From Peptococcaceae bacterium (GTDB taxonomy: Bacteria > Bacillota > Desulfitobacteriia > Desulfitobacteriales > Syntrophobotulaceae): a stretch of DNA of 48,536 nucleotides. The stretch is from positions 1 to 48,536 of the forward strand of contig JAAYOJ010000101.1 in the NCBI GenBank assembly GCA_012520405.1, given 5' to 3'. The notes below the pieces were generated by a model. The model did no database searches and was not told where the DNA came from. It saw nothing but the letters and a program-made list of their open reading frames with translations. Below are positions 4,655-36,434 of this stretch, one piece after another (the stretch's first letter is position 1; every line of letters starts with the position of its first letter). The translations under genes and the position numbers were made by a program.

Positions 4655-4794
4655 GCACATCACTCCTTTTCAAGGGATAATAATTTCATTCATACAAGAT
4701 TTGTTAATTAGCAAAGCAGTTAAAAGAAGTTATTTGTTTTAGTAATTTGGTTATGATAAGCAGTAATAAATCTAACAACAGGGGGAGATAAATT

Positions 4795-5322
4795 TTGAAT
4801 AAGCAAATGGTCCGAAGGTTTAAACAAATTTATGAACTGGAGAGATTTCTGATTGCCTTCTGTATGTCCCAATTATCTTCTACAGAAGATAAGTTCTATT
4901 GTTTTGCTTTTTCCCGCATGGTTGAAACAGAAAAAGAACATGCCAAATTTTTTGCTCAAAAATTAGCTGAAAAAGATATTTCTGTTCCTCGTTTAGGTGC
5001 TAATTTAGCTGGGGCGGCGGGTAGTATTATCGGAGAAACAATGGAGTTTTCCGGGCGATCAATTACCTGTAAAACCGGTGTTATCCTGGGAAAAAAATTA
5101 ATAGCAGCTTATCAAGAACTACTCCAAGTAATCAAGGAATTTCCTCAAGAGACTGAACTTGAGGAAAAGGTGCTTTTGTTTTTACTTGAGGAGGAATTTC
5201 ATACCTTATGGCTTAAGAATTATGTCAAACGCCTGGATCAAATAGAACTATGCAAAAACAGCCTAGGGGATGATGTTGTTAGTGACCATCCTACTATTAA
5301 TGTCAATATGCGTTGGCTTTAA
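4795..5322 (+). CDS. Ferritin-like / rubrerythrin-type diiron protein
   Basis: The 175-residue protein looks like a four-helix ferritin-like bundle. The expected carboxylate/histidine ligands can be placed: E in ELERF (about 15), ExxH in ETEKEH (about 46-51), a glutamate in AAYQELLQ (about 103), and a second ExxH in LLEEEFH (about 130-137). A glycine/alanine-rich loop connects the two halves. The start is TTG at 4795 with a strong GGGGGAG site about 8 nt upstream. No CxxC rubredoxin domain is present, so electron transfer by a fused rubredoxin is excluded. Possible roles are oxidative-stress defence or iron handling. It appears to be monocistronic, with a terminator at 5431-5469. The iron-binding assignment is by motif only. 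Confidence 0.75.
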   Translation: MNKQMVRRFKQIYELERFLIAFCMSQLSSTEDKFYCFAFSRMVETEKEHAKFFAQKLAEKDISVPRLGANLAGAAGSIIGETMEFSGRSITCKTGVILGKKLIAAYQELLQVIKEFPQETELEEKVLLFLLEEEFHTLWLKNYVKRLDQIELCKNSLGDDVVSDHPTINVNMRWL

Positions 5323-5595: not shown

Positions 5596-6840
5596 ATGGA
5601 TAAACCTTTAAAAGGAATTAAAGTAATTGATATGAGTACCTTTATTGCTGTACCGGCCTGTGCCAGGTTTTTAGCTGAGTTCGGGGCAGAAGTGATTAAG
5701 ATTGAGCCCAAAAGTGGGGATCAAGTACGTTTTAACGGTGTATCCGAGGGGCGTTTAGGCAGTCCTTATGAGAATACCACCTATGATTTGGAAAATGCTC
5801 ATAAGCGTGGACTGGTGCTCAATCTTAAAACACCGGAAGGCATGGAGATTCTATACAAACTATTGGCCGACACGGATATCTTCCTTACCAACTGGCGTCC
5901 TCAAGCCCTGCAGAAACTAGGGTTGGATTATGAGAGCCTTAAAGATAAGTTCCCGAAATTAGTCTATGGTTCCTTTACCGGCTACGGTGAAACAGGACCG
6001 GATTGTAACCTGCCAGGTTATGATTTTACAGCCTTCTGGGCACGCGGCGGCTTATTGGGAACTTTATATCAGAAGGACTCCGAGCCCATAAACCTTATCC
6101 CCGGTATCGGCGACCATGTGTCCGGTATGTTTCTCTGTGCCGGTATCATGACTGCACTCTATAATGCTCAAAAAACAGGAAAAGGGGATAAAGTATCTAC
6201 CAACCTGCTACATAGTTCTATATTTGTACAGGCTATTGCTATTCAGGCTGCCCAGTACAAAGACCTGGGTACTAAATATCCGACCAGCCGCAAAGTTGCC
6301 GAGAATCCCTTTAACAATACCTATAAGACCAAAGACGGCCGTTTTATTCAATTAAGTATGCCACCCTTTGATCTTTTCTATCCTAAGTTTATGCCTTTAA
6401 TGGGGAGGGCGGATCTGGTCGGCAATCCCCGCTATACCATGGACAGTATTACTAAAAACAAACTTCATGGCGAGTTTATTGCCATCTTAGATGAAGTTAT
6501 GGCTACTAAAACAGCGGCCGAATGGAGCGAAATATTTGTTAAGAATGATATTCCGCATTCCATTTGTCAAGTTTGGGAGGAAGTCCTGGAAGATCCCCAA
6601 GCATGGGCTATCGGAGTTTTCGAAAATGTTGATTATCCAACCGGTAAGCGGGCTATGGTTCGACCGCCGGTCAGCTTGGAGAGTGTAGAGCGACTTCCTT
6701 ACGGCAAAGCTCCGCTCTTAGGTGAACATAGCGAGGAAATCCTCAGGGAATTGGGTTACAGTGAGGAACAATTGAAAGAATTACATACTAAAGGTGTCTA
6801 TCATACCTGGGCCGACTTAAAAGAATATTGTGGTGGCTGA
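5596..6840 (+). CDS. Family III (CaiB/BaiF) CoA-transferase, HadA/FldA-like
   Basis: Family III CoA-transferases move CoA between acyl groups through an aspartyl-CoA thioester. The 414-residue length, the opening LKGIKVIDMSTFIAVPACARFLAEFGAEVIKIE region and the block PGYDFTAFWARGG are typical; the catalytic aspartate is D143 in GYDF. The last block is shared with the 2-hydroxyisocaproate and phenyllactate CoA-transferases HadA and FldA of clostridia, which supports a 2-hydroxyacid or aromatic acid substrate, though carnitine or oxalate homologues cannot be excluded. The start ATG follows GGAAAGGAGGG. The D-2-hydroxyacid dehydrogenase gene starts 4 bases after its stop, so the pair is translationally coupled and probably works on the same acid. 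Confidence 0.85.
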   Translation: MDKPLKGIKVIDMSTFIAVPACARFLAEFGAEVIKIEPKSGDQVRFNGVSEGRLGSPYENTTYDLENAHKRGLVLNLKTPEGMEILYKLLADTDIFLTNWRPQALQKLGLDYESLKDKFPKLVYGSFTGYGETGPDCNLPGYDFTAFWARGGLLGTLYQKDSEPINLIPGIGDHVSGMFLCAGIMTALYNAQKTGKGDKVSTNLLHSSIFVQAIAIQAAQYKDLGTKYPTSRKVAENPFNNTYKTKDGRFIQLSMPPFDLFYPKFMPLMGRADLVGNPRYTMDSITKNKLHGEFIAILDEVMATKTAAEWSEIFVKNDIPHSICQVWEEVLEDPQAWAIGVFENVDYPTGKRAMVRPPVSLESVERLPYGKAPLLGEHSEEILRELGYSEEQLKELHTKGVYHTWADLKEYCGG

Positions 6841-6844
6841 TAAT

Positions 6845-7816
6845 ATGAAAGTTGCGGTTTTGGTTAACAAAGCAAATTTTGAACACTATACAGCGCCAGG
6901 AGCAATTCCTAGCCATTGGGAGTTAATTCATTTGGGCAATGGCGTCCCGGATGAAACAGTTCTTATTGCTACAGATGCTGACGCCTTGCTTGTTGATCCC
7001 ATGATTCCTATTTCTGCTGCTGTTATTCAGGGTCTTCCTCGTCTCAAGCTTATTCATTCTCAGGGAGTGGCTTATAATCTAATTGACCTGGAGGCGGCCA
7101 GAAAAGCCGGTGTCTATGTAAGCAACTGTGCCGGGGTTAATGCCTCAGCGGTAGCGGAACAAGCTATTTTACTCATGTTGGCTCTGCTCAGAAACTTCCG
7201 GGAAAATGAGGACATGGTGTATGCTGCCAGGCAAAAGGAAGCCAAGACTCGTTGCTTTGAAAACGGTCTTAAGGAACTAAGTGATTGTCATGTGGGAATA
7301 ATCGGTTTGGGGGCAATTGGTAAAGAATTGGCCAGGATGTTGGACGCTTTCGGGTGTAAGTTAAGCTATTATAGCAGAACTACCAAGCCGGAATGTTCAA
7401 TAAGCTATTTACCTTTAGATGATCTTTATGCTCAGTGTGATATAATTTCCCTGCATGTTCCGGTAAACCCGGAGACAATCAACTTCATCAATGAAGAGGC
7501 AATCAACAAAATGAAACAAGGTGCTCTTTTAATCAATACTGCCCGGGGAGAGCTGGTAGATCAGGAGGCTGTCTGCCGGGCGCTTAGGGACGGGCGATTG
7601 GGAGGGGCCGGATTTGATACCCTGGCCCCGGAACCGGTGCAAGCAGATAATCCTTTTCTGGCTTTGCCGGCAGAGATTCGCCGCAAGGTAGCCCTTTCAC
7701 CACACATTGGCGGCATTACGGCGGGTTGCTTCTACCGTTCATTTGAGATTATCTGGAGCAACATGCGGAGGGTAGCCCAAGGGTTAAGGCCGAGTAATAT
7801 TGTAAACGGACTGTAA
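6845..7816 (+). CDS. D-2-hydroxyacid dehydrogenase (NAD-dependent)
   Basis: This enzyme interconverts a 2-oxoacid and its D-2-hydroxyacid with NAD(H). The Rossmann motif GxGxxG is GLGAIG at 154-159 (numbering from ATG 6845). The catalytic triad of the family is R234 in NTARGELVD, E263 in APEP and H287 in SPHIGG. Length is 323 residues. GTG codons at 6830 and 6833 are in frame, but they lie inside the previous gene and serve better as part of a GGTGG ribosome site, so I prefer ATG 6845. It follows the CoA-transferase by 4 bases. The context resembles the ldhA-hadA pair of reductive amino-acid fermentation. Phosphoglycerate or glyoxylate-type substrates are possible alternatives, since substrate cannot be read from the sequence. 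Confidence 0.85.
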   Translation: MKVAVLVNKANFEHYTAPGAIPSHWELIHLGNGVPDETVLIATDADALLVDPMIPISAAVIQGLPRLKLIHSQGVAYNLIDLEAARKAGVYVSNCAGVNASAVAEQAILLMLALLRNFRENEDMVYAARQKEAKTRCFENGLKELSDCHVGIIGLGAIGKELARMLDAFGCKLSYYSRTTKPECSISYLPLDDLYAQCDIISLHVPVNPETINFINEEAINKMKQGALLINTARGELVDQEAVCRALRDGRLGGAGFDTLAPEPVQADNPFLALPAEIRRKVALSPHIGGITAGCFYRSFEIIWSNMRRVAQGLRPSNIVNGL

Positions 7817-11638: not shown

Positions 11639-11995
11639 ATGGATAGAAAAAAAGAGTTAAAACAGCAGTATAAACAAATGAAACACCCGATGGGTGTTTT
11701 CATAGTTCGCTCCAAAGCAAGCAATAAATGCTTTCTGGAGGCTAGCAATAATTTTCGCGCGGGATTTAACAAAACTTTACTTCAACTTAGTGCCAATATG
11801 CATCCTAATCGAGAATTACAGAAGGAATGGAATGAGTTGGGTAAAGAAAACTTTAGCTTTGAGATTCTGGAAGAATTGGAATATGACAAGGATGAAAGTA
11901 AAACTGATTATTCCGAGGACCTGGCTATTCTGCACATGATGTGGGAAGAAAAGCTCAGAGCCCAGGGGATGGAGTTTTATAGGAAGAAGCTTTAA
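11639..11995 (+). CDS. Degenerate GIY-YIG domain protein
   Basis: The 118-residue protein resembles the small GIY-YIG family proteins of Bacillota: a basic N-terminus, a two-strand block, then ELQKEWNELGKENFSFEILEEL and a charged helical tail. The signature is altered. The first part reads GVF instead of GIY, and the YIG position reads FLE (in CFLEAS). The nuclease active-site tyrosines are therefore doubtful, so I do not claim catalytic activity. The C-terminal 41 bases overlap the end of the convergent padR gene. The function is unknown; DNA binding or a vestigial nuclease are possible. Confidence 0.65.
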   Translation: MDRKKELKQQYKQMKHPMGVFIVRSKASNKCFLEASNNFRAGFNKTLLQLSANMHPNRELQKEWNELGKENFSFEILEELEYDKDESKTDYSEDLAILHMMWEEKLRAQGMEFYRKKL

Positions 11996-12530
11996 CCGCA
12001 GCAAGACACTCATTTAGCCAATCAATATAGGCTTGTTCGCGCATGATCGCTCCTTTTAAAACAATATAATCTCCAAATTCTTCTGAAATAATATTAGAAA
12101 TATCTTTAGTTTCCAATAAATTTTCCATAGCGGATTGCAAAACCGCTAATTTTTTTTGGCGCTTTTCCAGCTGAGCTGTAAATTGCTGAATAATTTCTTC
12201 CTTATTCATTAACTCTATGAAATAAGCGCGAAGTCTAAATACATCTTTGGGAGTAGGCTCTAATGGCTCATCGCGGAGTATCCAATTTTTTAGTTCCTGT
12301 TTGCCTTTCTCGGTGATGGTATAGACTTTCTTTTCTAATTTTTCACCTTGAATTACGGTCTCGAAAGTGATTAAGTTTTCATCTGTTAGTTTTTTCAACT
12401 CCGGGTAAATCTGGCTGTGTTTGGCATACCAAAAACTTGCCAGTTCCTTATCAAATTCTATTGTTAGATCATAGCCGGTCATCGGCTTTCTATTAATCAG
12501 TCCCAGAATCGCATATTTTAATTTTCGCAT
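11955..12530 (-). CDS. PadR-family transcriptional regulator
   Basis: The 191-residue protein has the PadR winged helix at about 1-85 (LKYAILGLINRKPMTGYDL, then HSQIYPELKKLTDENLI and the wing YTITEKGKQEL). A helical C-terminal dimerisation domain follows, as in the longer PadR-s1/AphA-like group. The start ATG follows GAGG at 7-nt spacing. PadR proteins usually repress a neighbouring gene and release DNA when they bind a small molecule, often a phenolic acid. The gene is divergent from the fixABCX/acyl-CoA dehydrogenase operon, and the shared region holds a consensus PadR operator, so it is most likely the repressor of that operon. The ligand is unknown. Confidence 0.92.
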   Translation of the reverse strand: MRKLKYAILGLINRKPMTGYDLTIEFDKELASFWYAKHSQIYPELKKLTDENLITFETVIQGEKLEKKVYTITEKGKQELKNWILRDEPLEPTPKDVFRLRAYFIELMNKEEIIQQFTAQLEKRQKKLAVLQSAMENLLETKDISNIISEEFGDYIVLKGAIMREQAYIDWLNECLAAVKASSYKTPSPGL

Positions 12531-12587: not shown

Positions 12588-12626
12588 TTTTTTTCAAAAA
12601 ATAACAAATAATCTATGTCTAATTAT

Positions 12627-12646
12627 ACATGTAAATGTTGACATGT
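12627..12646. promoter_or_regulatory. PadR operator ATGT-N8-ACAT
   Basis: ATGT (12629-12632) and ACAT (12641-12644) are separated by exactly 8 bases, the published PadR consensus, and each half extends to the palindrome ACATGT. The right half overlaps the -35 element of the fix operon promoter. Confidence 0.85.
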
Positions 12647-12667
12647 TTCAAGGGTAGATATTAAAAT
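12638..12667 (+). promoter_or_regulatory. Promoter of the fixABCX/acyl-CoA dehydrogenase operon
   Basis: TTGACA (12638-12643) is 18 bp from TAAAAT (12662-12667). Its -35 box lies inside the PadR operator, so a bound PadR dimer should block RNA polymerase. Confidence 0.65.
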
Positions 12668-12714
12668 AATGTATGGTAATAATTTTAAATAAAGATAAAT
12701 AAGAGGTGATTTGG

Positions 12715-13485
12715 GTGAACGTTATTACATGTTACAAAATAGTTCCGGATGATCAGGATATTATTGTCCGCGACGACCGCACCTTAGGATTAGAAAAAGC
12801 TGAACTGGAAATTGGACAATATGATCTTCCGGCTATTGAAGCCGGTATGCAAGTCGTGGCCGATGCCGGTGGCAAGGTTAGTGCTTTAAGTGTAGGACCC
12901 AAACTTTTAGAAAATTCAAAACTCAAAAAAGGTGTTCTTTCCCGTGGTCCCGCGGATCTTTATCTGGTTGTAGATGATTCTCTAGCCGAAGCCGACACCC
13001 ATCAGACAGCCCGCACTTTGGCCGCAGCCATACAAAAAATCGGAGATGCCGATCTGGTTTTGTGTGGTGAAGGATCTTCCGACCTTTATGCCCAGCAAGT
13101 CGGTCCTCAACTTGGTGAATTGCTGGGAATGGCTAATATCAATGCCGTAAGTAAAATCACAGTTGAGGGAGATAAAGTTATTGTCGAGAGAACACTGGAA
13201 GATGAGGTAGAAGTACTAGAAGTCTCCTTACCTGCTGTTATCTCAGTTACTACAGATATTGTTCAGCCTCGCATCCCCAGTATGAAAGAAGTACTGTCAG
13301 CCGGTAAAAAGCCTGTAACCCAATGGAGTCTTGCGGATATCGGCCTTGCCGACAATCCTCAAACTATGGAAACCATTAACACCCTGGCACCGGAATTGGC
13401 AGAAAGAAAACAAATTATTATTGAAGGCGATTCCGAAGAAGCAGTAAATGAGCTCTGGGAAAACCTTCGCCAAGAATTGCAGTAA
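12715..13485 (+). CDS. fixA: Electron transfer flavoprotein beta subunit (FixA)
   Basis: EtfB/FixA pairs with FixB to carry electrons between acyl-CoA dehydrogenases, NADH and an acceptor. The sequence opens NVITCYKIVPDDQDI, typical of the FixA branch, and has the ETF nucleotide-binding segments LVLCGEGSSDLYAQQVGPQL and VSLPAVISVT. An in-frame GTG at 12706 exists, but AGGTGA is best spaced for GTG 12715, which gives the family-typical MNVITCYK start and 256 residues. It is the first gene of a seven-gene operon. Whether this ETF bifurcates electrons cannot be decided by eye. Confidence 0.93.
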   Translation: MNVITCYKIVPDDQDIIVRDDRTLGLEKAELEIGQYDLPAIEAGMQVVADAGGKVSALSVGPKLLENSKLKKGVLSRGPADLYLVVDDSLAEADTHQTARTLAAAIQKIGDADLVLCGEGSSDLYAQQVGPQLGELLGMANINAVSKITVEGDKVIVERTLEDEVEVLEVSLPAVISVTTDIVQPRIPSMKEVLSAGKKPVTQWSLADIGLADNPQTMETINTLAPELAERKQIIIEGDSEEAVNELWENLRQELQ

Positions 13486-13498
13486 AGGGGGCTAAAAA

Positions 13499-14437
13499 AT
13501 GAGTGCAATAAAAAATGTATGGGTTTTTAGTGATAAACAGGATATTTTAGCCGAACTATGTGCAGGCGCTCGCCAGTTAGGCGAAAAAGTAACGGTTCTG
13601 TTAATTGGCAATCAAAGCGCAGCCGATGAGGCCATAAAAGCAGGAGCTGATCACGTATATCTCATGGGAGAACTGGACGATTCTCGCATGGTTGAGGATT
13701 TTCTGCCTACAATTGAAAAATTAGTAGCTGAACACAATCCTGACTTGGTGATGTTCGGCAATACTAAACGGGGCAAGCTTATGGCCGGGAAACTGGCAGC
13801 CAAACGTGGAACGTCGGTTTTAGCTGATGTCATTGAGTTTTCTGAAGACGGAACATGTAAACGCCGGGTTTATGGCGGAGCTGCTATTAGTACCATAAAA
13901 TCCAATGCGGAAGTAGCAATTGCTACGGTTGGAGGCGGGGTATTCGGTCCCCAGGCTTTGGATGAGTCCCGTCAAGGAACTACGGAAAATGTTGATTTTG
14001 TCGCGACTGAATCTAAAGTTAAATGTGTAGAAAGAAGAGCTAAAGCCGGTGCAACAGTTAATCTTTCCGCGGCCAAGCGTGTTGTGGCGGTAGGCCGTGG
14101 TTTTGCTGACAAAGAAGATTTGAAAATGGCTGAAGAATTAGCTGAGCTAATAGGAGCCGAAATTGGTTGTACCCGTCCGTTATCGGAAGGCCTGGACTGG
14201 CTGCCCAGAGAATACTACATTGGTGTATCGGGAGTTATGTTCAAACCGGATTTGTATATTGCTTTGGGGATTTCCGGCCAAATTCAGCATATGGTAGGCT
14301 GCAACCAGTCCCAAACTATAATTGCTGTTAATAAGGATAAGGCTGCTCCGATATTCAAACAAGCGGATTACGGTATTGTTGGTGATCTATATAAAGTATT
14401 GCCAATGTTAATAGAAAAATTAAAGTCCGGCAAGTAA
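13499..14437 (+). CDS. fixB: Electron transfer flavoprotein alpha subunit (FixB)
   Basis: FixB/EtfA carries the FAD that shuttles between dehydrogenase and acceptor. The 312-residue protein has the N-terminal ETF domain (about 1-180) and the C-terminal FAD domain with GVSGVMFKPDLYIALGISG (about 248-266), GQIQHMVGCNQSQTIIAVN and the closing block KAAPIFKQADYGIVGDLYKVLP. The start ATG follows AAAGGGG, 13 bases after fixA. It is in the usual fixA-fixB order and is shorter than ferredoxin-fused EtfA proteins, so it has no extra iron-sulfur domain. Confidence 0.95.
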   Translation: MSAIKNVWVFSDKQDILAELCAGARQLGEKVTVLLIGNQSAADEAIKAGADHVYLMGELDDSRMVEDFLPTIEKLVAEHNPDLVMFGNTKRGKLMAGKLAAKRGTSVLADVIEFSEDGTCKRRVYGGAAISTIKSNAEVAIATVGGGVFGPQALDESRQGTTENVDFVATESKVKCVERRAKAGATVNLSAAKRVVAVGRGFADKEDLKMAEELAELIGAEIGCTRPLSEGLDWLPREYYIGVSGVMFKPDLYIALGISGQIQHMVGCNQSQTIIAVNKDKAAPIFKQADYGIVGDLYKVLPMLIEKLKSGK

Positions 14438-14474: not shown

Positions 14475-15773
14475 ATGAGTGCTGATAAATATGAAGTCAT
14501 AATTATCGGAGGGGGCCCCTCAGGACTTGCAGCAGCTTATAAACTGGCTCAAGCAGGTGTAGAGGTTGTGCTCGTTGAACGCGGTGATTACTGCGGTAGC
14601 AAGAACTTAAGCGGCGGGGTTTTTTATACGCGGGTGCTTGATCAACTGATTCCCGGTTTCTGGGAAGAAGCTCCGGTGGAACGTTATATTACCAATTATG
14701 TTACCACTCTTATGGATAAGGAAGATTACTTTAATCTTGATTACAAAGGGCAAGCTTTAAGCAAGCCCCCTTATAACGCCTTTTCCGTCCTGCGGGCTAA
14801 ATTTGACCGCTGGTTGGCTGAAAAAGCGGAAGATGCAGGGGTTATGCTGGTAAACGAGATAAAAGTAGAAAAAGTTCTTAAAGAAGGCAATAAAGTAACA
14901 GGCATTGTAGCCGGCGATGAAGAAATGTTGGCCGACGTAGTTATTGCTGCCGATGGTATTAACTCTTTTATTGCCCAGGAAGCAGGTTTGCGCGGGCCTA
15001 TTAAACCGGAGCACTTGGCTGTCGGTGCCAAAGCACTGATTGAATTGCCGCGGGAGAAGATAGAAGACAGGTTCCGCCTGACCGGTAATGAAGGAACTGC
15101 CTATGCCATGCTGGGAGAAGCCTCCCACGGGGTAGCAGGAGGGGCTTTTCTCTATACCAATATCGATTCCCTGTCCATAGGTGTTGTTCTGCGTTTGGAC
15201 GATTTAGTTAAATCAGGGGCCAAACCGGCCGAAGTTCTGGACGATCTGTTGGAACATCCTATGGTTGCGCCTTTGGTCAAGGACGGCAAAATGGTTGAGT
15301 ATGGGGCCCACCTCACTGCTGAGGGCGGATTGCATATGGTTCCCCAACAGCTGGTAGCGGATGGTTTTATTATGGTTGGGGATGCTGCAGGTTTTACCAT
15401 TAACAGTGGGCTTGTAATCCGGGGTATGGATTTGGCTGTTGGTTCCGGTATAGCCGCGGCTGAGGCAATTATCGAAGCTAAAGAGAAAAACGATTTCAGT
15501 GCAGCTTCCTTAAATTCTTATAAACGCCGCTTGGATGAGAGCTTTGTCATGAAAGATTTGAAAACTTATGCCAAAGCACCGATCTTTATGGAAAACGATC
15601 GCCTGTATAAGAGCTATTCTAAATTGGCCAATGATATATTCGGTAAGGTTTATAACCATGATTTAACTCCCAAGGAACTATTACTCAAAACTGCGCTTAA
15701 AGCGTTAAAAGAGAACAATTTATCCATATTTGACTTAGCCCGTGATGGCTTTAAGGGGGTGCGTGCACTGTGA
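14475..15773 (+). CDS. fixC: FixC-type flavoprotein (ETF:quinone oxidoreductase-like)
   Basis: FixC is the FAD subunit that passes electrons from FixAB to a quinone, together with the ferredoxin FixX. The 432-residue protein starts with the dinucleotide-binding motif IIIGGGPSGLAAAYKLA, has the second FAD motif VVIAADGINSFIAQEAG near 157 and the third FMVGDAAG-like block GFIMVGDAAGFTINSG near 297. It belongs to the geranylgeranyl-reductase/ETF-QO superfamily. Its 3' end overlaps fixX by 4 bases, showing translational coupling. The gene pair equals the C-terminal and ferredoxin parts of mitochondrial ETF-QO. Confidence 0.94.
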   Translation: MSADKYEVIIIGGGPSGLAAAYKLAQAGVEVVLVERGDYCGSKNLSGGVFYTRVLDQLIPGFWEEAPVERYITNYVTTLMDKEDYFNLDYKGQALSKPPYNAFSVLRAKFDRWLAEKAEDAGVMLVNEIKVEKVLKEGNKVTGIVAGDEEMLADVVIAADGINSFIAQEAGLRGPIKPEHLAVGAKALIELPREKIEDRFRLTGNEGTAYAMLGEASHGVAGGAFLYTNIDSLSIGVVLRLDDLVKSGAKPAEVLDDLLEHPMVAPLVKDGKMVEYGAHLTAEGGLHMVPQQLVADGFIMVGDAAGFTINSGLVIRGMDLAVGSGIAAAEAIIEAKEKNDFSAASLNSYKRRLDESFVMKDLKTYAKAPIFMENDRLYKSYSKLANDIFGKVYNHDLTPKELLLKTALKALKENNLSIFDLARDGFKGVRAL

Positions 15774-16051
15774 TTAAATTGAGTATACCGGAAAAGTTGG
15801 CCTTAAATAAATTTGAAGTGAATGAAGGCAACCCCCATATCATTATAGATAATACCAAATGCCAAAGCTGCCAGCCCAAAAGCTGTCTGACTGTATGTCC
15901 GGCGGAACTTTACAGTGAACAAAACGGAGAAATAATAGTAGAATGGGCAGGTTGTCTGGAGTGCGGGACCTGCAGGGCTGTATGTCCTCAAGGGGCAATT
16001 AGTTGGGAGTATCCTATAGGTGGATTTGGGATAATTTATAGACAGGGATAA
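15770..16051 (+). CDS. fixX: FixX ferredoxin-like protein
   Basis: This 93-residue protein has cysteines at 31, 34, 39 and 43 and at 62, 65, 68 and 72. The second set (CxxCxxCxxxCP) is a canonical [4Fe-4S] motif, and the first is partly remodelled, as in other FixX proteins. The C-terminal WEYPIGGFGIIYRQG is a FixX hallmark. The GTG start overlaps the fixC stop (GTGA). It should form a unit with FixC at the membrane. The name does not imply nitrogen fixation, since no nif gene is near. Confidence 0.93.
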   Translation: MIKLSIPEKLALNKFEVNEGNPHIIIDNTKCQSCQPKSCLTVCPAELYSEQNGEIIVEWAGCLECGTCRAVCPQGAISWEYPIGGFGIIYRQG

Positions 16052-16128: not shown

Positions 16129-17706
16129 TTGTCCAAAGTGAGAACTGCCGAACAATTAGCTGAGCTGATTCAGGACGGAATGACTGTGGGTGTAAGTGGT
16201 TTTGGCTTAGCCGGTTGGAACCAGGAAATGGCGATAGCCATAGGTAAACGATTTGAAGAAACCGGTCATCCCCGGGATATTACCTTTGTTCAAAGCTCGC
16301 CTATAGGTGATCATACTGAAAATACAGGAACGGCCTTTCTAGCCCATGAGGGATTAATTAAACGTTGGATCGGGGCTCATTTGCTGGGCTCGCCAAAAAT
16401 GGAAAGATTGGTTGTAGAGAACAAGCTTGAAGCTTATAATCTCCCCCAAGGAGTTATTATCCAGCTCTGGCGCGAGATCGCGGCCAAAAGACCCGGGCTT
16501 TTTACCAAAGTCGGTCTGAAAACATTTGTTGACCCCCGGGTAGAAGGAGCCAAACTCAATGCCCGGACCACGGAGGACATTGTTAAGGTAGTTAACTTTG
16601 AAGGGGAAGAATGGTTATTTTATAAAAGTTTTCCAGTGGATGTGGGCTTAATTCGTGGTACTACAGCCGATGAAAATGGCAATATAACTATGGAAAACGA
16701 GGGTATACTTGCTTGTGCTCTTCCTTTGGCTCAGGCTGTTAAAAACAGTGGCGGTATTGTTATTGCTCAAGTGGAAAATATCGCCAAAGCGAACACTCTA
16801 CATCCTAAAGACGTTAGGGTTCCCGGCATTTTGGTTGATTATGTTGTGGTAGCTACTAGTCAGAAAAACCATTATCAAACAGAAGGTACTTACTATAATC
16901 CAGCTTTTGCAGGTAATATCAAAGTGCCGTTAAGTGAAGTTGCTCCGCTGGAGCTCAATGAACGTAAAATTATTGCGCGGCGAGCAGCGATGGAACTTAA
17001 ACCCAATGCTATTTTAAACTTAGGGGTGGGTATTCCTAGTGATGTAGCCAATGTCGCAGCCGAGGAAAAGGCAGACAAATCCTTAACTTTGACCACGGAA
17101 GCGGGCAGTATTGGCGGAATTCCAGCCAGCTTACCCCATTTTGGGCATGCGTATAACAGCGAATGTATGTTAGAGGAACAAGCGCAGTTTGATTATTATG
17201 ACGGTGGCGGTATTGATATAACCTGTTTAGGGCTGGCGCAAACAGATAAGTTGGGAAATGTCAACGTTACTCATTTTGGACCGAAGATTGCCGGCTGCGG
17301 TGGATTTATGAATGTCAGCCAAAATGCGAAGAAAGTAATATTCTGCGGTACTTTTACTGCCGGAGGACTGAAAGTTGCTATTGAAGACGGCAAGCTAAAG
17401 ATTATTCAGGAAGGTAAATATCAAAAATTCTTGCCTCAAGTGGAACACATTTCATTCAGCGGCGAATATGCTAGTGAGATAAATAAACCCGTACTCTATA
17501 TTACTGAACGAGCTGTATTCACCTTGGAAAACGGAGAAATGACTTTAATCGAAATCGCACCCGGTATTGACCTGGAAAAAGATGTTTTAGCCCATATGGG
17601 CTTCCGCCCAAGGATTTCGTCCAACTTAAAGGAAATGCCATCCGGAATCTTTCAACCGGAGTGGGGACAGCTTAGACAGATCATTGAGGAAAAAATGAAA
17701 GGGTGA
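16129..17706 (+). CDS. Family I acyl-CoA:carboxylate CoA-transferase (YdiF/Pct-like)
   Basis: This fused alpha-beta family I CoA-transferase (525 residues) transfers CoA between an acyl-CoA and a free acid through a glutamyl-CoA thioester. The catalytic glutamate is E324 in TTEAGSIGGIPA. The alpha half has VSGFGLAGWNQE near 22-33, and the oxyanion-loop GVGIP is at 299-303. The TTG start at 16129 follows GGGAGG at 8-nt spacing. In E. coli the related ydiF gene is likewise linked to an acyl-CoA dehydrogenase and to fixABCX homologues (ydiQRST), so this operon is an analogue of that poorly understood cluster. Propionate, butyrate or aromatic acids are candidate substrates, and none is proven. 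Confidence 0.88.
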   Translation: MSKVRTAEQLAELIQDGMTVGVSGFGLAGWNQEMAIAIGKRFEETGHPRDITFVQSSPIGDHTENTGTAFLAHEGLIKRWIGAHLLGSPKMERLVVENKLEAYNLPQGVIIQLWREIAAKRPGLFTKVGLKTFVDPRVEGAKLNARTTEDIVKVVNFEGEEWLFYKSFPVDVGLIRGTTADENGNITMENEGILACALPLAQAVKNSGGIVIAQVENIAKANTLHPKDVRVPGILVDYVVVATSQKNHYQTEGTYYNPAFAGNIKVPLSEVAPLELNERKIIARRAAMELKPNAILNLGVGIPSDVANVAAEEKADKSLTLTTEAGSIGGIPASLPHFGHAYNSECMLEEQAQFDYYDGGGIDITCLGLAQTDKLGNVNVTHFGPKIAGCGGFMNVSQNAKKVIFCGTFTAGGLKVAIEDGKLKIIQEGKYQKFLPQVEHISFSGEYASEINKPVLYITERAVFTLENGEMTLIEIAPGIDLEKDVLAHMGFRPRISSNLKEMPSGIFQPEWGQLRQIIEEKMKG

Positions 17707-18889: not shown

Positions 18890-20038
18890 ATGAGTTATAC
18901 ATTAACTGAAGAACAACAGCTCATTCAGCAAAATGTCCGGGAGTTTGCCGAAGAGTATGTTCAGGAGCATACAACGGAAATTGATAGCTCAGGGGAGTTT
19001 CCGACAGAAATCGTCGGCCAAGCCGCTGAACAAGGTTTGTTTGCCTTGCTGTTTCCGGAAGAGTTTGGCGGAGTAGAGGCCGGATTTTTGAGTTATATTT
19101 TAACAGTGGAAGAGGTTTCGCGGACTTGTGCAGCCCTAGGTTCGATAATTGTTAATCATTGCTCCCTGGCTGCTGAAGCGATTAACAGGTTTGGCAGCAA
19201 GGAACAAAAGGAACAATACCTGCCTGCTATGTGTGCCGGAGAAACTATAGGAGCTTTTGCTCTGAATGAGTTTTGTGCTGATCCGGGTTATGGTGAGTCC
19301 AAGGTTGTTGCCGTGCGTGAGGGCCAGGACTATGTTCTAAATGGTAAAAAGTATTTTGTCATGAACAGTGGGGCAGCTGGTGTTTATGTAGTATTTGCCT
19401 TGACTAACCCTGAAAACATTGAAAATGGAATGAGTGCCTTCTTGGTTGAGGCTGAAACACCGGGTTTCAGCGTGGGTCGCACTATCGACAAAATGGGCTT
19501 GAATGGTTGTCCAACAGCTGAAATTGTATTGGAAAATGTTAGGGTGCCTGCGACTAACTTGTTGGGCAAAGAAAATGAAGGCATGAAAATCGTTCAAAAG
19601 CTTCAGCCCATGTTTAAACTGGCCCTTGCGGCCCAAACCTTGGGTATTGCTCAATCTGCTTTGGAAAATTCTATTGAATATGCCAAACAAAGAGTTCAGT
19701 TCGGTAGACCGATTGGCAAATTCCCAGCCATCCAAACTATGATTGCTGAAATGGCAGCCAATATTCATATTGGCAGACTGGCCTTGTACGACGCTGCCGA
19801 AATGGTGGAAAAAGGCGATGAAGAAGAATATGAAACCAAAGCTTCGATGGTTCAGCTGTTCGTCAATAAAATAGGTCAGAAGACCTGCTTAGATGCTATT
19901 CAGGTTCACGGCGGTTATGGCTACAGTCAAGAAATGCTTGTCTCCCGTCTCTTAAGAGATGTTAAAGGGACCATAGCCATTGACAGCGCCAGTGAATTCC
20001 CGGAAAAAATTATTGCGCAAAATATTATGGGCTTGTAA
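18890..20038 (+). CDS. Acyl-CoA dehydrogenase-like protein with altered active site
   Basis: The 382-residue protein clearly belongs to the acyl-CoA dehydrogenase fold, with AIQVHGGYGYSQE, NLLGKENEGMKI and the FGRPIGKFPAIQ block. However, two functional motifs are changed. Where the neighbour has YEGTNEVQ with its catalytic glutamate, this protein has IDSASEFP, so the base position appears to be D365. The usual ALTEPxAGSD block reads ALNEFCADPGYG. It may have low or no activity alone and act as a structural or FAD-binding partner of the upstream enzyme, as in known alpha2beta2 acyl-CoA dehydrogenases of steroid degradation. A terminator follows, so it ends the operon. The start ATG follows AGGAGGG. 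Confidence 0.88.
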   Translation: MSYTLTEEQQLIQQNVREFAEEYVQEHTTEIDSSGEFPTEIVGQAAEQGLFALLFPEEFGGVEAGFLSYILTVEEVSRTCAALGSIIVNHCSLAAEAINRFGSKEQKEQYLPAMCAGETIGAFALNEFCADPGYGESKVVAVREGQDYVLNGKKYFVMNSGAAGVYVVFALTNPENIENGMSAFLVEAETPGFSVGRTIDKMGLNGCPTAEIVLENVRVPATNLLGKENEGMKIVQKLQPMFKLALAAQTLGIAQSALENSIEYAKQRVQFGRPIGKFPAIQTMIAEMAANIHIGRLALYDAAEMVEKGDEEEYETKASMVQLFVNKIGQKTCLDAIQVHGGYGYSQEMLVSRLLRDVKGTIAIDSASEFPEKIIAQNIMGL

Positions 20039-28799: not shown

Positions 28800-30845
28800 A
28801 TGCTGTTCTATGCAGCTTACTTATTTAAATCATCGTTAATTCTTTATATATTGGCAGCTCTTATAGCTCTCCTTATGACCAAAAATCAGAAAACCTGTAA
28901 CATTTTAGTGAATTCTATCTGTATTTTGTCTGCGCTTTTAGGAGCAGCAGCTTCGGTGTTAAAGCTAACCAGTGGCGTAGATACATTGCCGCTCATACAA
29001 GTGCATTCTGTTGTTCCTTTTATCTCAATCAGTATGACAATTGATAATCTTTCAGCCTATTTTATCCTGGCTCTGTCTATCCTTGTCTGCTGTGTGTCCG
29101 TTTATTCTCTGGGGTATATCTCCTCATATATTGGTCAAAGGAACGTAGCCCTGTTTTATTTTCTGTATACCACCTTCATTCTTTCTATGATTTTGGTCCT
29201 TACTTCGGATAATGCTATCTTTTTCTATATATCCTGGGAAGTAATGTCCCTTTTATCTTATTTTCTAGTTGTGTTCGAATCAGAAAAAAGTGAAAGTCAA
29301 AGAGCCGGCAAGTTGTATATTATTATGACCCATCTGGCGACCGCCTTTTTACTGGTCGGATTTATGATTATTTACAGCTATACCAAGTCCTTTGATTTTG
29401 GTTTAGGCTCAGCTGCGGCAATTATGCCGGACAGTATCAAAAATATTGTCTTTATCATGTTTTTAATTGGCTTCGGGACGAAAGCCGGTATTATACCACT
29501 TCATATTTGGCTGCCATCTGCCCATCCGGCCGCTCCCAGCAATATTTCGGCATTGATGTCTGGGATTATGATTAAGACAGCTATTTATGGCCTGATTCGT
29601 TTTATTCCCGGCTGTTTGGGAGTTGAACATAGCTGGTGGGGAATAACTATTCTTGCTCTGGGGATAGTTTCGGCGGTGTTAGGCGTGGCCTATGCCTTGA
29701 TGGAACATAATATCAAGCGGCTATTGGCTTTCAGTAGCGTTGAAAATATCGGTATTATTTTGATCGGCTTGGGCGTTTGCTTTATCGCCTTGGCTCAAAA
29801 TAATCAGCTAATCAGCTCCCTGGCCCTAACGGCAGCCCTTCTGCATACCTTTAACCATGCTTTATTTAAAGGTGGATTGTTTCTGGGAGCCGGGTCTATC
29901 CAATATGCTGCCCATACCAGGGATATTGAAAAACTAGGTGGCCTTATAAAAAAGATGCCGTTAACGGGGTTCTTCGTTTTATGTTTTTCCCTGGCCATTT
30001 CAGCTATAGTTCCTTTTAACGGATTTATCAGTGAATGGTTAGCTTATCAGTCCCTCTATGCTTTCATGATTAACGGGGAAACGGGGCTTAATATTTTATT
30101 TATTCTCGCTGTAGCTGCTCTGGGGCTTGCAGGTGCTCTGGCCGCCGCCTGTTTTGTCAAACTATTTGGGTTTTCTTTTTTAGGATTGTCGAGAAGCGAA
30201 CAAGCTTTACGAGCTGAAGAAGTTCCGCTTAGCATGAATATAGCTATGGGAATCCTGACTTTTCTTTGCCTATTGTCCGGGTTGTTTCCTTTAGTTGCGC
30301 TTAAATTGATTGATCCGGTAACAGTTAGTCTCGGAGGGAGTTCTATATTCAGTACACTTAGGGGTGGATTTTTGATCGTCTATTATCCTCTGGAAGCTGC
30401 AGGCAATACAATATCACCGCTTATTTTTGTGATTTTTTTAGTAATATTTATAGCCTTAATCCTGCTGGCGGCAAGAGTTGTGGGCGGCAAATATCTGGAA
30501 CGGAGATATGGCACCTGGGACTGCGGATTTGAAGCCTTAAACTCGCGTATGCAGTATAGCGCTACCGGTTATGCCAAACCCATAAAAATCGTCTTTCGCA
30601 TTCTATTTAAACCTACACGGCAAGTAGTGATGGAGGGAGACTCTATTTACCATCCGGATGCGATCCAATATAAAACTTCCTATACCTCGATTTTTGTGAA
30701 ATATCTCTATCATCCCATTTTATTAGCGGTTAAAGATTTTGCTAAAATAACTAAATACAAAATCCAAACCGGCAGTATTCATAGTTATCTTTTGTATATA
30801 TTTATCGCTGTAATGGCGATGATGCTCTATAACCGATTTCTGTAG
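28800..30845 (+). CDS. HyfB-like proton/ion-translocating membrane subunit
   Basis: This is an antiporter-like subunit of the NuoL/NuoM/NuoN superfamily (681 residues, about 16 membrane helices), the HyfB type. The family core IIPLHIWLPSAHPAAPSNISALMSGIMIKTAIYGLIR is partly shown by GFGTKAGIIPLHIW and the conserved lysine, and the discontinuous helix region LLHTFNHALFKGGLFL is present. It is the first of six genes in the order B-C-E-F-G-I of a hydrogenase-4-like complex. It should translocate H+ or Na+ driven by the electron-transfer module encoded downstream. The ATG follows GGAGG at 9-nt spacing. Confidence 0.9.
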   Translation: MLFYAAYLFKSSLILYILAALIALLMTKNQKTCNILVNSICILSALLGAAASVLKLTSGVDTLPLIQVHSVVPFISISMTIDNLSAYFILALSILVCCVSVYSLGYISSYIGQRNVALFYFLYTTFILSMILVLTSDNAIFFYISWEVMSLLSYFLVVFESEKSESQRAGKLYIIMTHLATAFLLVGFMIIYSYTKSFDFGLGSAAAIMPDSIKNIVFIMFLIGFGTKAGIIPLHIWLPSAHPAAPSNISALMSGIMIKTAIYGLIRFIPGCLGVEHSWWGITILALGIVSAVLGVAYALMEHNIKRLLAFSSVENIGIILIGLGVCFIALAQNNQLISSLALTAALLHTFNHALFKGGLFLGAGSIQYAAHTRDIEKLGGLIKKMPLTGFFVLCFSLAISAIVPFNGFISEWLAYQSLYAFMINGETGLNILFILAVAALGLAGALAAACFVKLFGFSFLGLSRSEQALRAEEVPLSMNIAMGILTFLCLLSGLFPLVALKLIDPVTVSLGGSSIFSTLRGGFLIVYYPLEAAGNTISPLIFVIFLVIFIALILLAARVVGGKYLERRYGTWDCGFEALNSRMQYSATGYAKPIKIVFRILFKPTRQVVMEGDSIYHPDAIQYKTSYTSIFVKYLYHPILLAVKDFAKITKYKIQTGSIHSYLLYIFIAVMAMMLYNRFL

Positions 30846-30857
30846 GAGAAGGAGAAT

Positions 30858-31814
30858 ATGAACAACGTGATTTACATCCTGGTACAGATTGTGGTCATTC
30901 TGGCGGTTGCACCTCTGGTCAACGGGATTAATAGAAAAGTCAAAGCCCTTAGTCAGAAAAGAAAAGGGGCCCCGCCTTGGCAAATGTACTTTGATCTTTA
31001 CAAGCTATTAAAAAAGAACACGGTTGTTTCCAATGTATCGTCTTGGGTATTCAAGGCTGCACCTTATATAGTTTTTGCGACGGCTCTTGCTGGGGCTTTA
31101 CTCGTTCCGGTAACGAGCAAGCTGGCCGGCAGTCATATTCCTGGAGATTTTATTCTATTGATTTATATTCTTGCCTTGGGCAGGTTCTTTATGATGGCTG
31201 CCGCTTTGGATACGGGCAGTACTTTTGGTGGAATGGGTAGTAGCAGAGAAGCGATGATTTCCTCTTTAATTGAGCCTTCAATTCTTGTCTCTCTATTTAC
31301 TCTCGGACTTATAGCCAGGTCATTTTCTTTGCCGGAAATTATAATGTCTGTTCAGAATACAGGAATTCCCTTGTCTAATCCTGTTTATATCATGGTCTTT
31401 TTGGCTATGGTGATCGTCTTGATTGCGGAGGCCTGCCGGATTCCTGTGGATGACCCTTCCACTCATCTGGAATTAACCATGATACACGAGGCCATGATCC
31501 TGGAATATTCCGGTCGGCATCTGGCTTTTATGGAGTACGGGGCTGCGGTCAAACAGCTTATTTTTATGACCTTACTGGTTAATATCTTTTTGCCGACGGA
31601 TCAGTTTATAACCCTCTCCGGTCTGCTAGCTGTTGTGCTGTCCCTCATAATGTATGTGCTTAAAATAATTGTTGTCGCCATGGTAATCGCTATGATCGAA
31701 ATAAAGACTGTCAAGCTAAGACTTTTCAGTATACCTAACCTGGCAGCATTGGCTTTTATTTTGGCATTCTTAGGTATTTTGCAGTATTTCATTCTAGGAG
31801 GCGGCTATGCTTGA
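30858..31814 (+). CDS. HyfC/NuoH-like membrane subunit
   Basis: The 318-residue protein has about eight membrane helices and matches the HyfC/HycD/NuoH family, the subunit that links the peripheral arm to the ion-pumping arm. The cytoplasmic loop motif AEACRIPVDDPSTHLELTMIHEA (about 190-212) contains the conserved acidic cluster of this family, and GAPPWQMYFDLYKLLKKN is the first conserved loop. The next gene overlaps its 3' end by 8 bases. It is consistent with a membrane-bound energy-converting complex. Confidence 0.92.
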   Translation: MNNVIYILVQIVVILAVAPLVNGINRKVKALSQKRKGAPPWQMYFDLYKLLKKNTVVSNVSSWVFKAAPYIVFATALAGALLVPVTSKLAGSHIPGDFILLIYILALGRFFMMAAALDTGSTFGGMGSSREAMISSLIEPSILVSLFTLGLIARSFSLPEIIMSVQNTGIPLSNPVYIMVFLAMVIVLIAEACRIPVDDPSTHLELTMIHEAMILEYSGRHLAFMEYGAAVKQLIFMTLLVNIFLPTDQFITLSGLLAVVLSLIMYVLKIIVVAMVIAMIEIKTVKLRLFSIPNLAALAFILAFLGILQYFILGGGYA

Positions 31815-32463
31815 GTTTGTAAAAATTTTGTCTGTCTTGATCTTATTGTCTGCTTTTGTACTAATGGGAAATAAAAGAATTAATTCCTACATTGAAACCT
31901 TCCGGGTTCAATCCCTGTTCATTGCCCTTATGGCTGGAATCAACGGCATAATAATGTTGAGAACTGAAGGCCGTTTTGATCTCTTGGCCATTTGTGTGCT
32001 TATCTTAGTTCTTAAAGTTATTTATATACCCGGTCTATTGCACCGGACGTATGCTCATGTCAAATACGAAGTGGAAAAAGACTTTATTTTAAATATTCCA
32101 ATTCTGATTTCAGTTTGCTCCGGACTTGTGGTGTTCACTTATTTTTGTCTGGGAACCTTAAGCAGTATAATTCCGAACAGTATAATACTTCAATTGGTCA
32201 ATTCGGTATCTGTTATTTGGATCGGCTTGTTCTTTATGATCAGCAGAAAAAAAGCGATTGGCCAAATCATTGGTTTCCTGGTGATTGAAAACGGGCTTTT
32301 TGTTACTACCATGCTAGGAACAGAGGGAATGCCCTTTATTGTGGATTTAGGATTATTTATCGACTTGATTACGGCCATCCTGATTATGGGTATTCTAGTC
32401 TTTCGAATCAATGACCTATTTGATTCCATTGATACGGATCAACTGAATAAATTGAAAGGATAA
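31807..32463 (+). CDS. HyfE-like membrane subunit
   Basis: The 218-residue protein has about seven membrane helices and is recognised as HyfE-like by size, hydrophobicity and position between the C and F genes. HyfE is thought to be partly related to NuoK. A glutamate in the segment VIENGLFVTTMLG (about 158-170) fits the buried carboxylate of the NuoK-like region. AGGAGG sits just before the ATG, inside the end of the preceding gene. The weaker part of the call is that this family diverges quickly. Confidence 0.82.
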   Translation: MLEFVKILSVLILLSAFVLMGNKRINSYIETFRVQSLFIALMAGINGIIMLRTEGRFDLLAICVLILVLKVIYIPGLLHRTYAHVKYEVEKDFILNIPILISVCSGLVVFTYFCLGTLSSIIPNSIILQLVNSVSVIWIGLFFMISRKKAIGQIIGFLVIENGLFVTTMLGTEGMPFIVDLGLFIDLITAILIMGILVFRINDLFDSIDTDQLNKLKG

Positions 32464-32481
32464 ACTGAAAGGAATAATAAT

Positions 32482-33954
32482 ATGGGATTTATTCTGCCGA
32501 TTATACCGGTTATCACTGTACTATTACTATTTTTAACCAGAAAAAGTTTTCTTCAGCATATTATTAATTTGTTAGCTTCCGGCTTACTAGTGATTGGCGC
32601 TTTACTGTTGACCTATAAGGTAGTAAATCAAGGAAGTATAAGGTACGGCTTTTTAGGTGGCATTTTTTATGTGGATGCTTTGAGCGTGATTGTGCTGGAT
32701 ATTGTAATAATTATCGGCCTAGTGACCAGTATTTATTCTGTCGGTTATTTGCAGGAAGAAATTAGACAGGAGAAGATTAGGCCGGGGCAAATAAAGCGTT
32801 ACTATTTGCTAATGTATTCCTTTATTTTTACCATGGTTATGGCTTTAACAGTAAATAATTTGGGATTGATGTGGATAGCGATTGAAGCCACGACCTTAGC
32901 CTCCGCTTTCCTGGTAGGGTTCGACAATAATAAATATGCCCTCGAAGCTGCCTGGAAATATGTAATTATTTGCTCCGTAGGTATTGCTATTGCCTTTTTG
33001 GGAATAATCCTGTTCTATTTATCGGCAAGAGGGGTTTTAAGCGAATCAGCCGCTTTAGATTGGGTCGCTTTATATGAGAACGCAAAATCCTTGCAAAGTC
33101 CGGTTTTACGGCTGGCCTTTATATTTATACTGGTGGGTTTTGGTACCAAAGCGGGTTTGGCTCCCATGCACACCTGGCTACCTGATGCCCACAGCCAGGC
33201 ACCCTCTCCAATCAGTGCGCTTTTGTCAGGCGTACTGCTAAACAGTGCAATGTATGGGATTATCAGAGCTTTAACTATTGTTAATTGCAATCTGGAAAAC
33301 AATATTTTTACCGGCAGGTTATTGTTAGCGATAGGGATTTTATCTATTCTGACTGCGGCAATTTTCATTATGACCCAAAGAGATTATAAAAGACTGCTTG
33401 CTTATTCCAGTATCGAGCATATGGGGATTATTGCCGTAGCCATGGGTGTTTTTACCCCCTTGGCGGTGTTTGGGGGACTTTTGCATATGATTAATCATTC
33501 CCTGACCAAATCAATGCTTTTTCTGTCAGCCGGTAATATTCTACAAAAATTTAACACCATGCAAATATCTAAAATTAAAGGGGTACTCAAAATCCTCCCC
33601 TTTTCCGGAACAGCCTTTTTACTTGGCTTGTTTGCGATTGCCGGTACTCCGCCCTTCAGCATTTTCAGCAGTGAAATAAACATTATTGTGGCGCTCTTTA
33701 GCGGAGGCAGTATTTGGATAGGAGTTGTTTTGGTTTTGCTGCTAGCAGTGGTTTTTGCCGGAATAGTAGCTTCCTTATTTCGCATGTTTTATGGGGAGCG
33801 GGATCAGGAAACTCTACAGCCGGGGGAAATCAATAAGGCAGGGACAGGGGCTATTGTCGTTCTTTTAATAGCCATTACTTTGGGAGGCTTGTTTATGCCT
33901 TCCTATGTTATCGAGCTTATTTATCAGGCTCAGGGTCTTATCCTGGGGATATAA
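32482..33954 (+). CDS. HyfF-like proton/ion-translocating membrane subunit
   Basis: This is a second antiporter-like subunit (490 residues, about 14 helices), NuoN/HyfF type. It contains LAPMHTWLPDAHSQAP, preceded by GFGTKAG with the conserved lysine, and LLHMINHSLTKSMLFLSAGN, the broken-helix block. With HyfB this gives the complex two antiporter-like channels. The 3' end is 37 bases before the start I favour for the large-subunit gene. A reading frame that overlaps its end is only an upstream extension of that next gene. Confidence 0.92.
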   Translation: MGFILPIIPVITVLLLFLTRKSFLQHIINLLASGLLVIGALLLTYKVVNQGSIRYGFLGGIFYVDALSVIVLDIVIIIGLVTSIYSVGYLQEEIRQEKIRPGQIKRYYLLMYSFIFTMVMALTVNNLGLMWIAIEATTLASAFLVGFDNNKYALEAAWKYVIICSVGIAIAFLGIILFYLSARGVLSESAALDWVALYENAKSLQSPVLRLAFIFILVGFGTKAGLAPMHTWLPDAHSQAPSPISALLSGVLLNSAMYGIIRALTIVNCNLENNIFTGRLLLAIGILSILTAAIFIMTQRDYKRLLAYSSIEHMGIIAVAMGVFTPLAVFGGLLHMINHSLTKSMLFLSAGNILQKFNTMQISKIKGVLKILPFSGTAFLLGLFAIAGTPPFSIFSSEINIIVALFSGGSIWIGVVLVLLLAVVFAGIVASLFRMFYGERDQETLQPGEINKAGTGAIVVLLIAITLGGLFMPSYVIELIYQAQGLILGI

Positions 33955-33991
33955 CAGATTGGAGAATATTGAAAAAGAGAGGCTGAAAATT

Positions 33992-35575: not shown

Positions 35576-35648
35576 AGACAAAAACACCTGAATTACAAAT
35601 TAACTAATCTAATTAATAAATTAACTTATACTGTTAAGGAAGATAGAT

Positions 35649-36434
35649 ATGTTTGATATTATTAAAAAAATAGTTAAGTATCCAAGACTGACTAATAATT
35701 ATCCGGACAAAGCTCTGGACTCCAGCCTGTTTATTGGCAGCCCGGAAATTGATACAGATAAGTGCAAACTGTGTGGCGAATGTGTAAGACACTGCCCGTC
35801 TGGGGCAATTAAAATTAATACTGTAAGTAATAGCATAACCATCGATTATGCCCAATGTGTATTTTGTGTATTGTGCGAAGAGGTTTGCCGGTCAGGAGCG
35901 GCGAAGATGACTAATAAATTTGAGCTGGCCACTAAAAATAAAGTGACTTTACAAAAAGGCCCTTGGGTAATTGATGAAAACAATATTCCATATGAACCTC
36001 AAGCTTTGGATGCTCTGCTACAAAGCAAAATTAAAAAAACCTTGGGCCGCAGCCTTTATATCAGGGAGGTTGATGCCGGCTCTTGCAACGGCTGTGATTA
36101 TGAGATCAACGGTTTAAATAATCCTTTTAACGATCTGGAAAGACTAGGGATCAGCTTTGTCGCTTCACCCAGACATGCGGACATGCTTTTAGTAACCGGT
36201 ACCGCCACTCGTAATATGCAACTGGCCTTGCTAAAAACTTACGCGGCCACCCCCGATCCTAAACTTGTTGTCGCGGTAGGGGCCTGCGCCTGTAGCGGCG
36301 GAATATTTAGGGATAGTTACGCTACTAATAACGGAATTGATTCTCTGGTACCGGTCGATGTATATATTCCGGGCTGCCCACCGAGGCCTCAGGCCATTTT
36401 GTATGGCATATTAAAAGCCCTGGATAAGGTATAA
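35649..36434 (+). CDS. Ferredoxin-NuoB/HyfI fusion subunit
   Basis: The 261-residue protein joins a two-cluster ferredoxin to a hydrogenase small-subunit/NuoB domain. The first [4Fe-4S] motif is C39-xx-C42-xx-C45-xxx-C49 and the second C70-xx-C73-xx-C76-xxx-C80. The NuoB-like part has SCNGCDYE (C146, C149), GACACSGG (C213) and PGCPPRP (C243), so the proximal cluster ligands are kept. In hydrogenase-4 the ferredoxin (HyfH) and small subunit (HyfI) are separate genes, so this is a fusion of both. Electrons can travel through the clusters although the neighbouring large subunit lost its NiFe ligands. A weak AT-rich hairpin (36433-36466) may end the operon. Confidence 0.93.
   Translation: MFDIIKKIVKYPRLTNNYPDKALDSSLFIGSPEIDTDKCKLCGECVRHCPSGAIKINTVSNSITIDYAQCVFCVLCEEVCRSGAAKMTNKFELATKNKVTLQKGPWVIDENNIPYEPQALDALLQSKIKKTLGRSLYIREVDAGSCNGCDYEINGLNNPFNDLERLGISFVASPRHADMLLVTGTATRNMQLALLKTYAATPDPKLVVAVGACACSGGIFRDSYATNNGIDSLVPVDVYIPGCPPRPQAILYGILKALDKV

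Follow-up and report, generated by a model that had tools for sequence, protein, structure and literature searches.

A predicted double PadR operator at a FixABCX/acyl-CoA dehydrogenase operon points to 2-enoates as its likely substrates

We analysed a 48,536-nucleotide stretch of DNA from a Peptococcaceae bacterium (hereafter the window) and found that an otherwise anonymous redox operon, encoding ETF, FixC, FixX, a CoA-transferase and two acyl-CoA dehydrogenases (ACADs), is preceded by a predicted PadR operator made of two overlapping dyads. We consider it fairly probable that PadR represses the operon from this double site, that a 2-enoate, most likely a cinnamate-type arylacrylate, acts as inducer, and that the encoded enzymes reduce the corresponding enoyl-CoA. 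The features on which this reading draws are as follows.

11955..12530, minus strand: padR, 191 aa, PadR winged helix (PF03551) and Vir_act_alpha_C (PF10400), divergent from the fix operon
12615..12630, no strand: PadR dyad A, ATGT-CTAATTAT-ACAT, that is ATGTCTAATTATACAT, overlapping the padR -10
12622..12651, minus strand: predicted padR promoter, TTGAAA (12651-12646), 18-bp spacer, TATAAT (12627-12622), 11/12 positions, a consensus match only
12629..12644, no strand: PadR dyad B, ATGT-AAATGTTG-ACAT, containing the fix -35, its flanks extending to ACATGT-N8-ACATGT (12627-12646)
12638..12667, plus strand: fix-operon promoter, TTGACA (12638-12643), 18-bp spacer, TAAAAT (12662-12667), 11/12 consensus matches
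12715..13485, plus strand: fixA/etfB-like ETF beta, first gene of the operon, GTG start, Shine-Dalgarno AGAGGTGA at 12702-12709
13499..14437, plus strand: fixB/etfA-like ETF alpha, 312 aa
14475..15773, plus strand: fixC-like FAD oxidoreductase (YdiS/FixC type)
15770..16051, plus strand: fixX-like ferredoxin
16129..17706, plus strand: family I CoA-transferase (FadX/YdiF type), 56% identical to A. woodii CarA over 524 aa
17714..18856, plus strand: ACAD1, 42% identical to A. woodii CarC, IYEGT motif intact
18890..20038, plus strand: ACAD2, 36% identical to CarC, AIDSA in place of IYEGT

The original prediction placed an ATGT-N8-ACAT motif with extended ACATGT halves over the TTGACA box of the operon, next to a divergent padR, and both are exactly there: positions 12627-12646 hold the 20-mer ACATGTAAATGTTGACATGT, or ACATGT-AAATGTTG-ACATGT, with TTGACA inside it, and padR lies on the minus strand. 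The motif so described is half of the operator, the second dyad at 12615-12630 having been missed; the two dyads have an ACATGT in common, so that the whole reads ATGT-N8-ACATGT-N8-ACAT and 14 bp separate the dyad centres. A lone ATGT-N8-ACAT is weak evidence in this setting, the 184-bp intergenic region between padR and the fix operon being 82% AT: a single copy there has P = 0.014 in shuffles, and across the window two copies were observed against 0.68 expected, with two or more in 18 of 100 shuffles. In contrast, the double dyad was found in none of 40,000 shuffles of the intergenic region, the extended form ACATGT-N8-ACATGT matched once in the same number, and the exact double dyad is a single copy in the 2.5-Mb genome. 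The other two species of the genus (G012 and G013) conserve both dyads, while the spacer and neighbouring bases vary. Judged by sequence, the site carries both the ATGT-N8-ACAT near a target promoter that characterizes operators of PadR subfamily 1 and the two overlapping dyads of the B. subtilis type, and we regard it as confirmed as a genuine predicted PadR operator, double rather than single. When the whole genome was searched for further regulon members, a degenerate pattern returned 58 and 60 matches against 42 and 44 in the reversed control, and on these counts we claim no further targets.

The double operator spans both predicted divergent promoters. These were the two best matches in a promoter scan that is weak when taken alone (five matches of this quality, where shuffles average 2.9), and their hexamers, on both strands, are largely kept in G012 and G013. 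Coverage of both promoters by one operator suggests that PadR would repress the fix operon and autoregulate its own gene. The same genome carries a second PadR-family gene (contig C122, 5263-5931) with a perfect dyad, ATGTTAACGCTAACAT, at 5232-5247, just upstream of its start, an arrangement suggestive of autoregulation there as well.

The window PadR has the N-terminal winged helix and C-terminal Vir_act_alpha_C domain that define PadR subfamily 1, both above the Pfam cut-off (PF03551, 65.9 bits; PF10400, 69 bits). A profile built from this protein and three relatives matched B. subtilis PadR (5x11) over its full length with 212 bits and 180 residues aligned, far exceeding the score of any other solved relative. 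Identity to B. subtilis PadR is 52% overall and 66% over residues 1-85, and the recognition-helix stretch AKHSQIYPELKKLTDE is identical in the two proteins. In B. subtilis, the padC operator consists of two overlapping dyads with room for two PadR dimers, and phenolic acids inactivate the repressor (review, PMC10295242). The window thus resembles the PadR-padC switch of B. subtilis and the PadR-padA switch of L. plantarum in its full-length subfamily 1 protein, and the former also in its recognition helix and in an ATGT-N8-ACAT overlapped by another dyad, which together would take two dimers. It differs in its target, an ETF/CoA-transferase/ACAD operon rather than a decarboxylase, and in the C-terminal half of PadR, which is only 40% identical to that of B. 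subtilis; residue 154 is Asp here and in 96% of the related group, but His in B. subtilis PadR. Since the C-terminal half has diverged, this residue included, the effector preference of the window PadR may differ from that of its B. subtilis counterpart.

We observed the linkage of PadR, operator and reductase across Firmicutes. A scan of an 84,980-species collection yielded 77 related-PadR loci, which together with the window and two further relatives made 80 loci for analysis. A perfect dyad lies within 350 bp upstream of padR in 49 of these 80 loci, which share descent and so do not count as independent events, compared with a mean of 1.1 and a maximum of 6 in dinucleotide shuffles and 0-3 at each of eight control offsets. 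TTGACA occupies the same position in the dyad, read toward the divergent gene, in 31 of the 49, and 29 of these 31 have a -10 hexamer matching at five or six of six positions at 17-18 bp spacing, so that by this comparison the operator incorporates the predicted -35 of the divergent gene. Genes for OYE-type flavoenzymes of about 650 or 665 codons cluster on the divergent side, with 48 of the 56 found sitting within 0-4 kb there and almost none elsewhere; that of C. ljungdahlii combines Oxidored_FMN and Pyr_redox domains. Their length agrees with that of 2-enoate reductases from clostridia, among them FldZ (665 aa), an enzyme active on cinnamate and p-coumarate but on none of the aliphatic enoates tested (PMC5882074), and from family and size they may be expected to have FldZ-like activity. 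Some enoate-reductase-linked PadR relatives have no perfect dyad.

A PadR divergent from an enoate reductase was previously noted in C. difficile 027 (PMC2768977). In C. difficile strain 173070 we found a double dyad (L099, 9817-9846) between padR and genes for a lactate/oxalate-type MFS transporter and a 650-aa enoate-reductase-like protein. The padR/2-enoate-reductase loci of C. ljungdahlii, C. beijerinckii and C. difficile share with the window a related PadR, the same operator on the divergent -35 and, presumably, reduction of the C=C bond of an enoate. They differ from it in encoding a single-chain OYE/FAD-type enzyme with a presumed free-acid substrate and no CoA activation. Several Acetobacterium-group PadRs of this family (L056, L059, L062, L068, L069, L073 and L083) adjoin an rsgA-like gene and a gene for a ~992-aa dCache chemoreceptor, an assignment checked by Pfam in L062 only, and no reductase; a perfect dyad was absent upstream of them.

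A second group of related PadRs neighbours genes for a CoA-transferase, an acyl-CoA dehydrogenase and ETF, joined in A. paludosum by an AMP-ligase. The A. paludosum dehydrogenase scored 805 bits against CarC of 6FAH and its ETF alpha 832 bits against CarE. One Acetobacterium genome (G091; 4,044,777 bases) encodes a CarC identical to that of PDB 6FAH and is, by that criterion, A. woodii. Here a padR relative (L213, 4033-4578) is divergent from carA, with the double-dyad operator ATGTTTAATACAACATGTAACTATTGACAT (4781-4810) in between, and on alignment both dyads and TTGACA fall in the same register as in the window. The caffeate operon carABCDE with a divergent PadR and a double dyad occurs in six Acetobacterium genomes, A. 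woodii included. In A. paludosum two tandem padR genes, 49% identical to each other, adjoin the car operon (L192, 780-2046). The likeness of the window to A. woodii car extends to PadR (53% identical), to the order of the dyads relative to the -35, and to the CoA-transferase and ACAD1, the former belonging to the CarA family at family level only. Unlike car, the window operon has no CarB, has two ACADs, and pairs a FixAB-type ETF with FixC and FixX in place of the bifurcating CarDE: no AMP-ligase is encoded between padR and 20038, and the window EtfA aligns to CarE only from residue 65, lacking the N-terminal ferredoxin domain of CarDE-type ETF alpha. In the literature collection searched, no full text brought PadR together with caffeate and Acetobacterium, although the connection may still have been reported elsewhere. 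Caffeate, p-coumarate and ferulate are said to induce caffeate reduction in A. woodii, a result attributed to Dilling and colleagues in 2007.

The PadR tree sets the window genus apart as a separate lineage (support 99/100), which falls outside the car clade and closer to the enoate-reductase groups. This placement suggests that the PadR family became linked to a CoA-transferase/ACAD/ETF operon on at least two occasions, a history that a common signal would fit better than common descent of the operon. Conservation of the site next to the same operon, which the original prediction made a test, holds within the genus; outside it, neither PadR nor site accompanies the related operons of the two genomes examined. 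One of these genomes (G007) has its own PadR/enoate-reductase pair and, elsewhere, a CoA-transferase/ACAD/ACAD/EtfBA/FixCX operon without PadR or dyad; the other (G031) has two CoA-transferase/ACAD/Fix-type operons, likewise without either. Regulator and site occur together, and the existence of Fix/ACAD operons without PadR in relatives means that the substrate cannot be deduced from the enzymes alone.

The ETF, FixC, FixX, CoA-transferase and ACAD proteins belong to the same families as those of E. coli ydiF/ydiO/ydiQRST and fixABCX, where the gene order differs from that of the window operon and where we know of no PadR. IYEGT, the region of the catalytic Glu, is present in ACAD1 and CarC and replaced by AIDSA in ACAD2, which may be a non-catalytic partner subunit. 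FixC has a weak, sub-threshold match to PF21162, the domain by which ETF-quinone oxidoreductase binds ubiquinone. A complete Fld-type phenylalanine pathway in the window was considered and set aside, since window positions 1-20038 showed neither its dehydratase nor its activator gene; an HGD-D/2-hydroxyacyl-CoA dehydratase-type pair lies on another contig of the same genome (C107). On the far side of padR (5596-7816) are genes for a family III CoA-transferase and a D-2-hydroxyacid dehydrogenase; these and the HGD-D pair are possibly parts of a reductive amino-acid pathway feeding enoyl-CoA. By eye, translations from 28800-36434 look like membrane subunits of proton-pumping dehydrogenases and hydrogenase-type subunits, resembling hydrogenase-4/formate-hydrogenlyase.

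From these comparisons we infer a course of binding, repression, induction, reaction direction and electron flow. In the absence of inducer, two PadR dimers on 12615-12644 would block the fix-operon promoter and PadR's own promoter. A 2-enoate acid entering the cell, with a cinnamate-type arylacrylate the likeliest, would bind PadR, which would then leave the DNA and allow transcription of the operon. The CoA-transferase would, like CarA, activate the acid through CoA exchange with the product acid, and ACAD1 would reduce the 2,3 double bond of the resulting enoyl-CoA with electrons passing via ETF/FixCX. The potential is about -30 mV for caffeyl-CoA and about -10 mV for crotonyl-CoA (review, PMC5861303). 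The source of the electrons could, speculatively, be menaquinol, which at about -74 mV could reduce either through FixCX.

Other readings of the locus were weighed against this one. The same PadR circuit could respond to, and the operon act on, aliphatic 2-enoates (crotonate, tiglate or 4-methyl-2-pentenoate from leucine) or enoyl-CoA, and the wider substrate range of enoate reductases from non-proteolytic clostridia relative to FldZ would allow this (PMC5882074), as would the dehydratase-type pair, family III CoA-transferase and D-2-hydroxyacid dehydrogenase, which would suit amino-acid reduction. However, the best-characterised neighbours of related PadRs use aromatic acrylates (caffeate, in car), and phenolic acids are the signal for PadR in B. 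subtilis (PMC10295242); we consider an aliphatic inducer unlikely, if by no means far-fetched. We find it slightly harder still to credit that the operon runs oxidatively, its ACADs oxidising saturated (aryl)alkanoyl-CoA and menaquinone receiving the electrons via ETF/FixCX, on the pattern of anaerobic fatty-acid oxidation. The matches to YdiQRST/YdiO/FadX-type families and the faint PF21162 similarity of FixC are consistent with such a role, but the same regulator family elsewhere flanks enzymes working in the reducing direction, and the operon has no hydratase, thiolase or acyl-CoA synthetase.

A chance origin of the palindrome in so AT-rich a region would be credible for a single motif, seen in 1.4% of intergenic shuffles, but we rejected it as highly improbable on the double-dyad shuffle count and the comparative counts, the double site being kept in the genus and the same operator recurring in related loci. 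Reduction of arylacrylyl-CoA by the window operon, originally a guess from the PadR family name, is by our analysis better supported than its author could know: flavoenzymes of the 2-enoate-reductase type are neighbours of related PadRs with this operator, as is car in at least six genomes of Acetobacterium. Acids of the acrylate type are the probable substrates of the window operon, which would reduce their double bond.

The regulatory device is of a known kind; what is new is that a FixABCX/acyl-CoA dehydrogenase operon is wired to it, and that caffeate respiration gains a candidate regulator. For the window organism, the substrate of an anonymous redox operon is narrowed to 2-enoates, cinnamates first, and, if electrons do travel from menaquinol through FixCX, the pathway would be a membrane-linked variant of caffeate respiration. 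As a by-product, the comparison supplies both A. woodii caffeate respiration and many enoate reductases of clostridia with a candidate repressor and its operator. More tentatively, one PadR lineage could serve anaerobic Firmicutes as a general sensor of 2-enoate (arylacrylate) electron acceptors. The enzymes that it switches on would be unrelated yet share one chemistry: enoate reductases of the OYE type, A. woodii's bifurcating caffeyl-CoA reductase and, in the window genus, a quinone-linked FixABCX/ACAD system of arylacrylate respiration.
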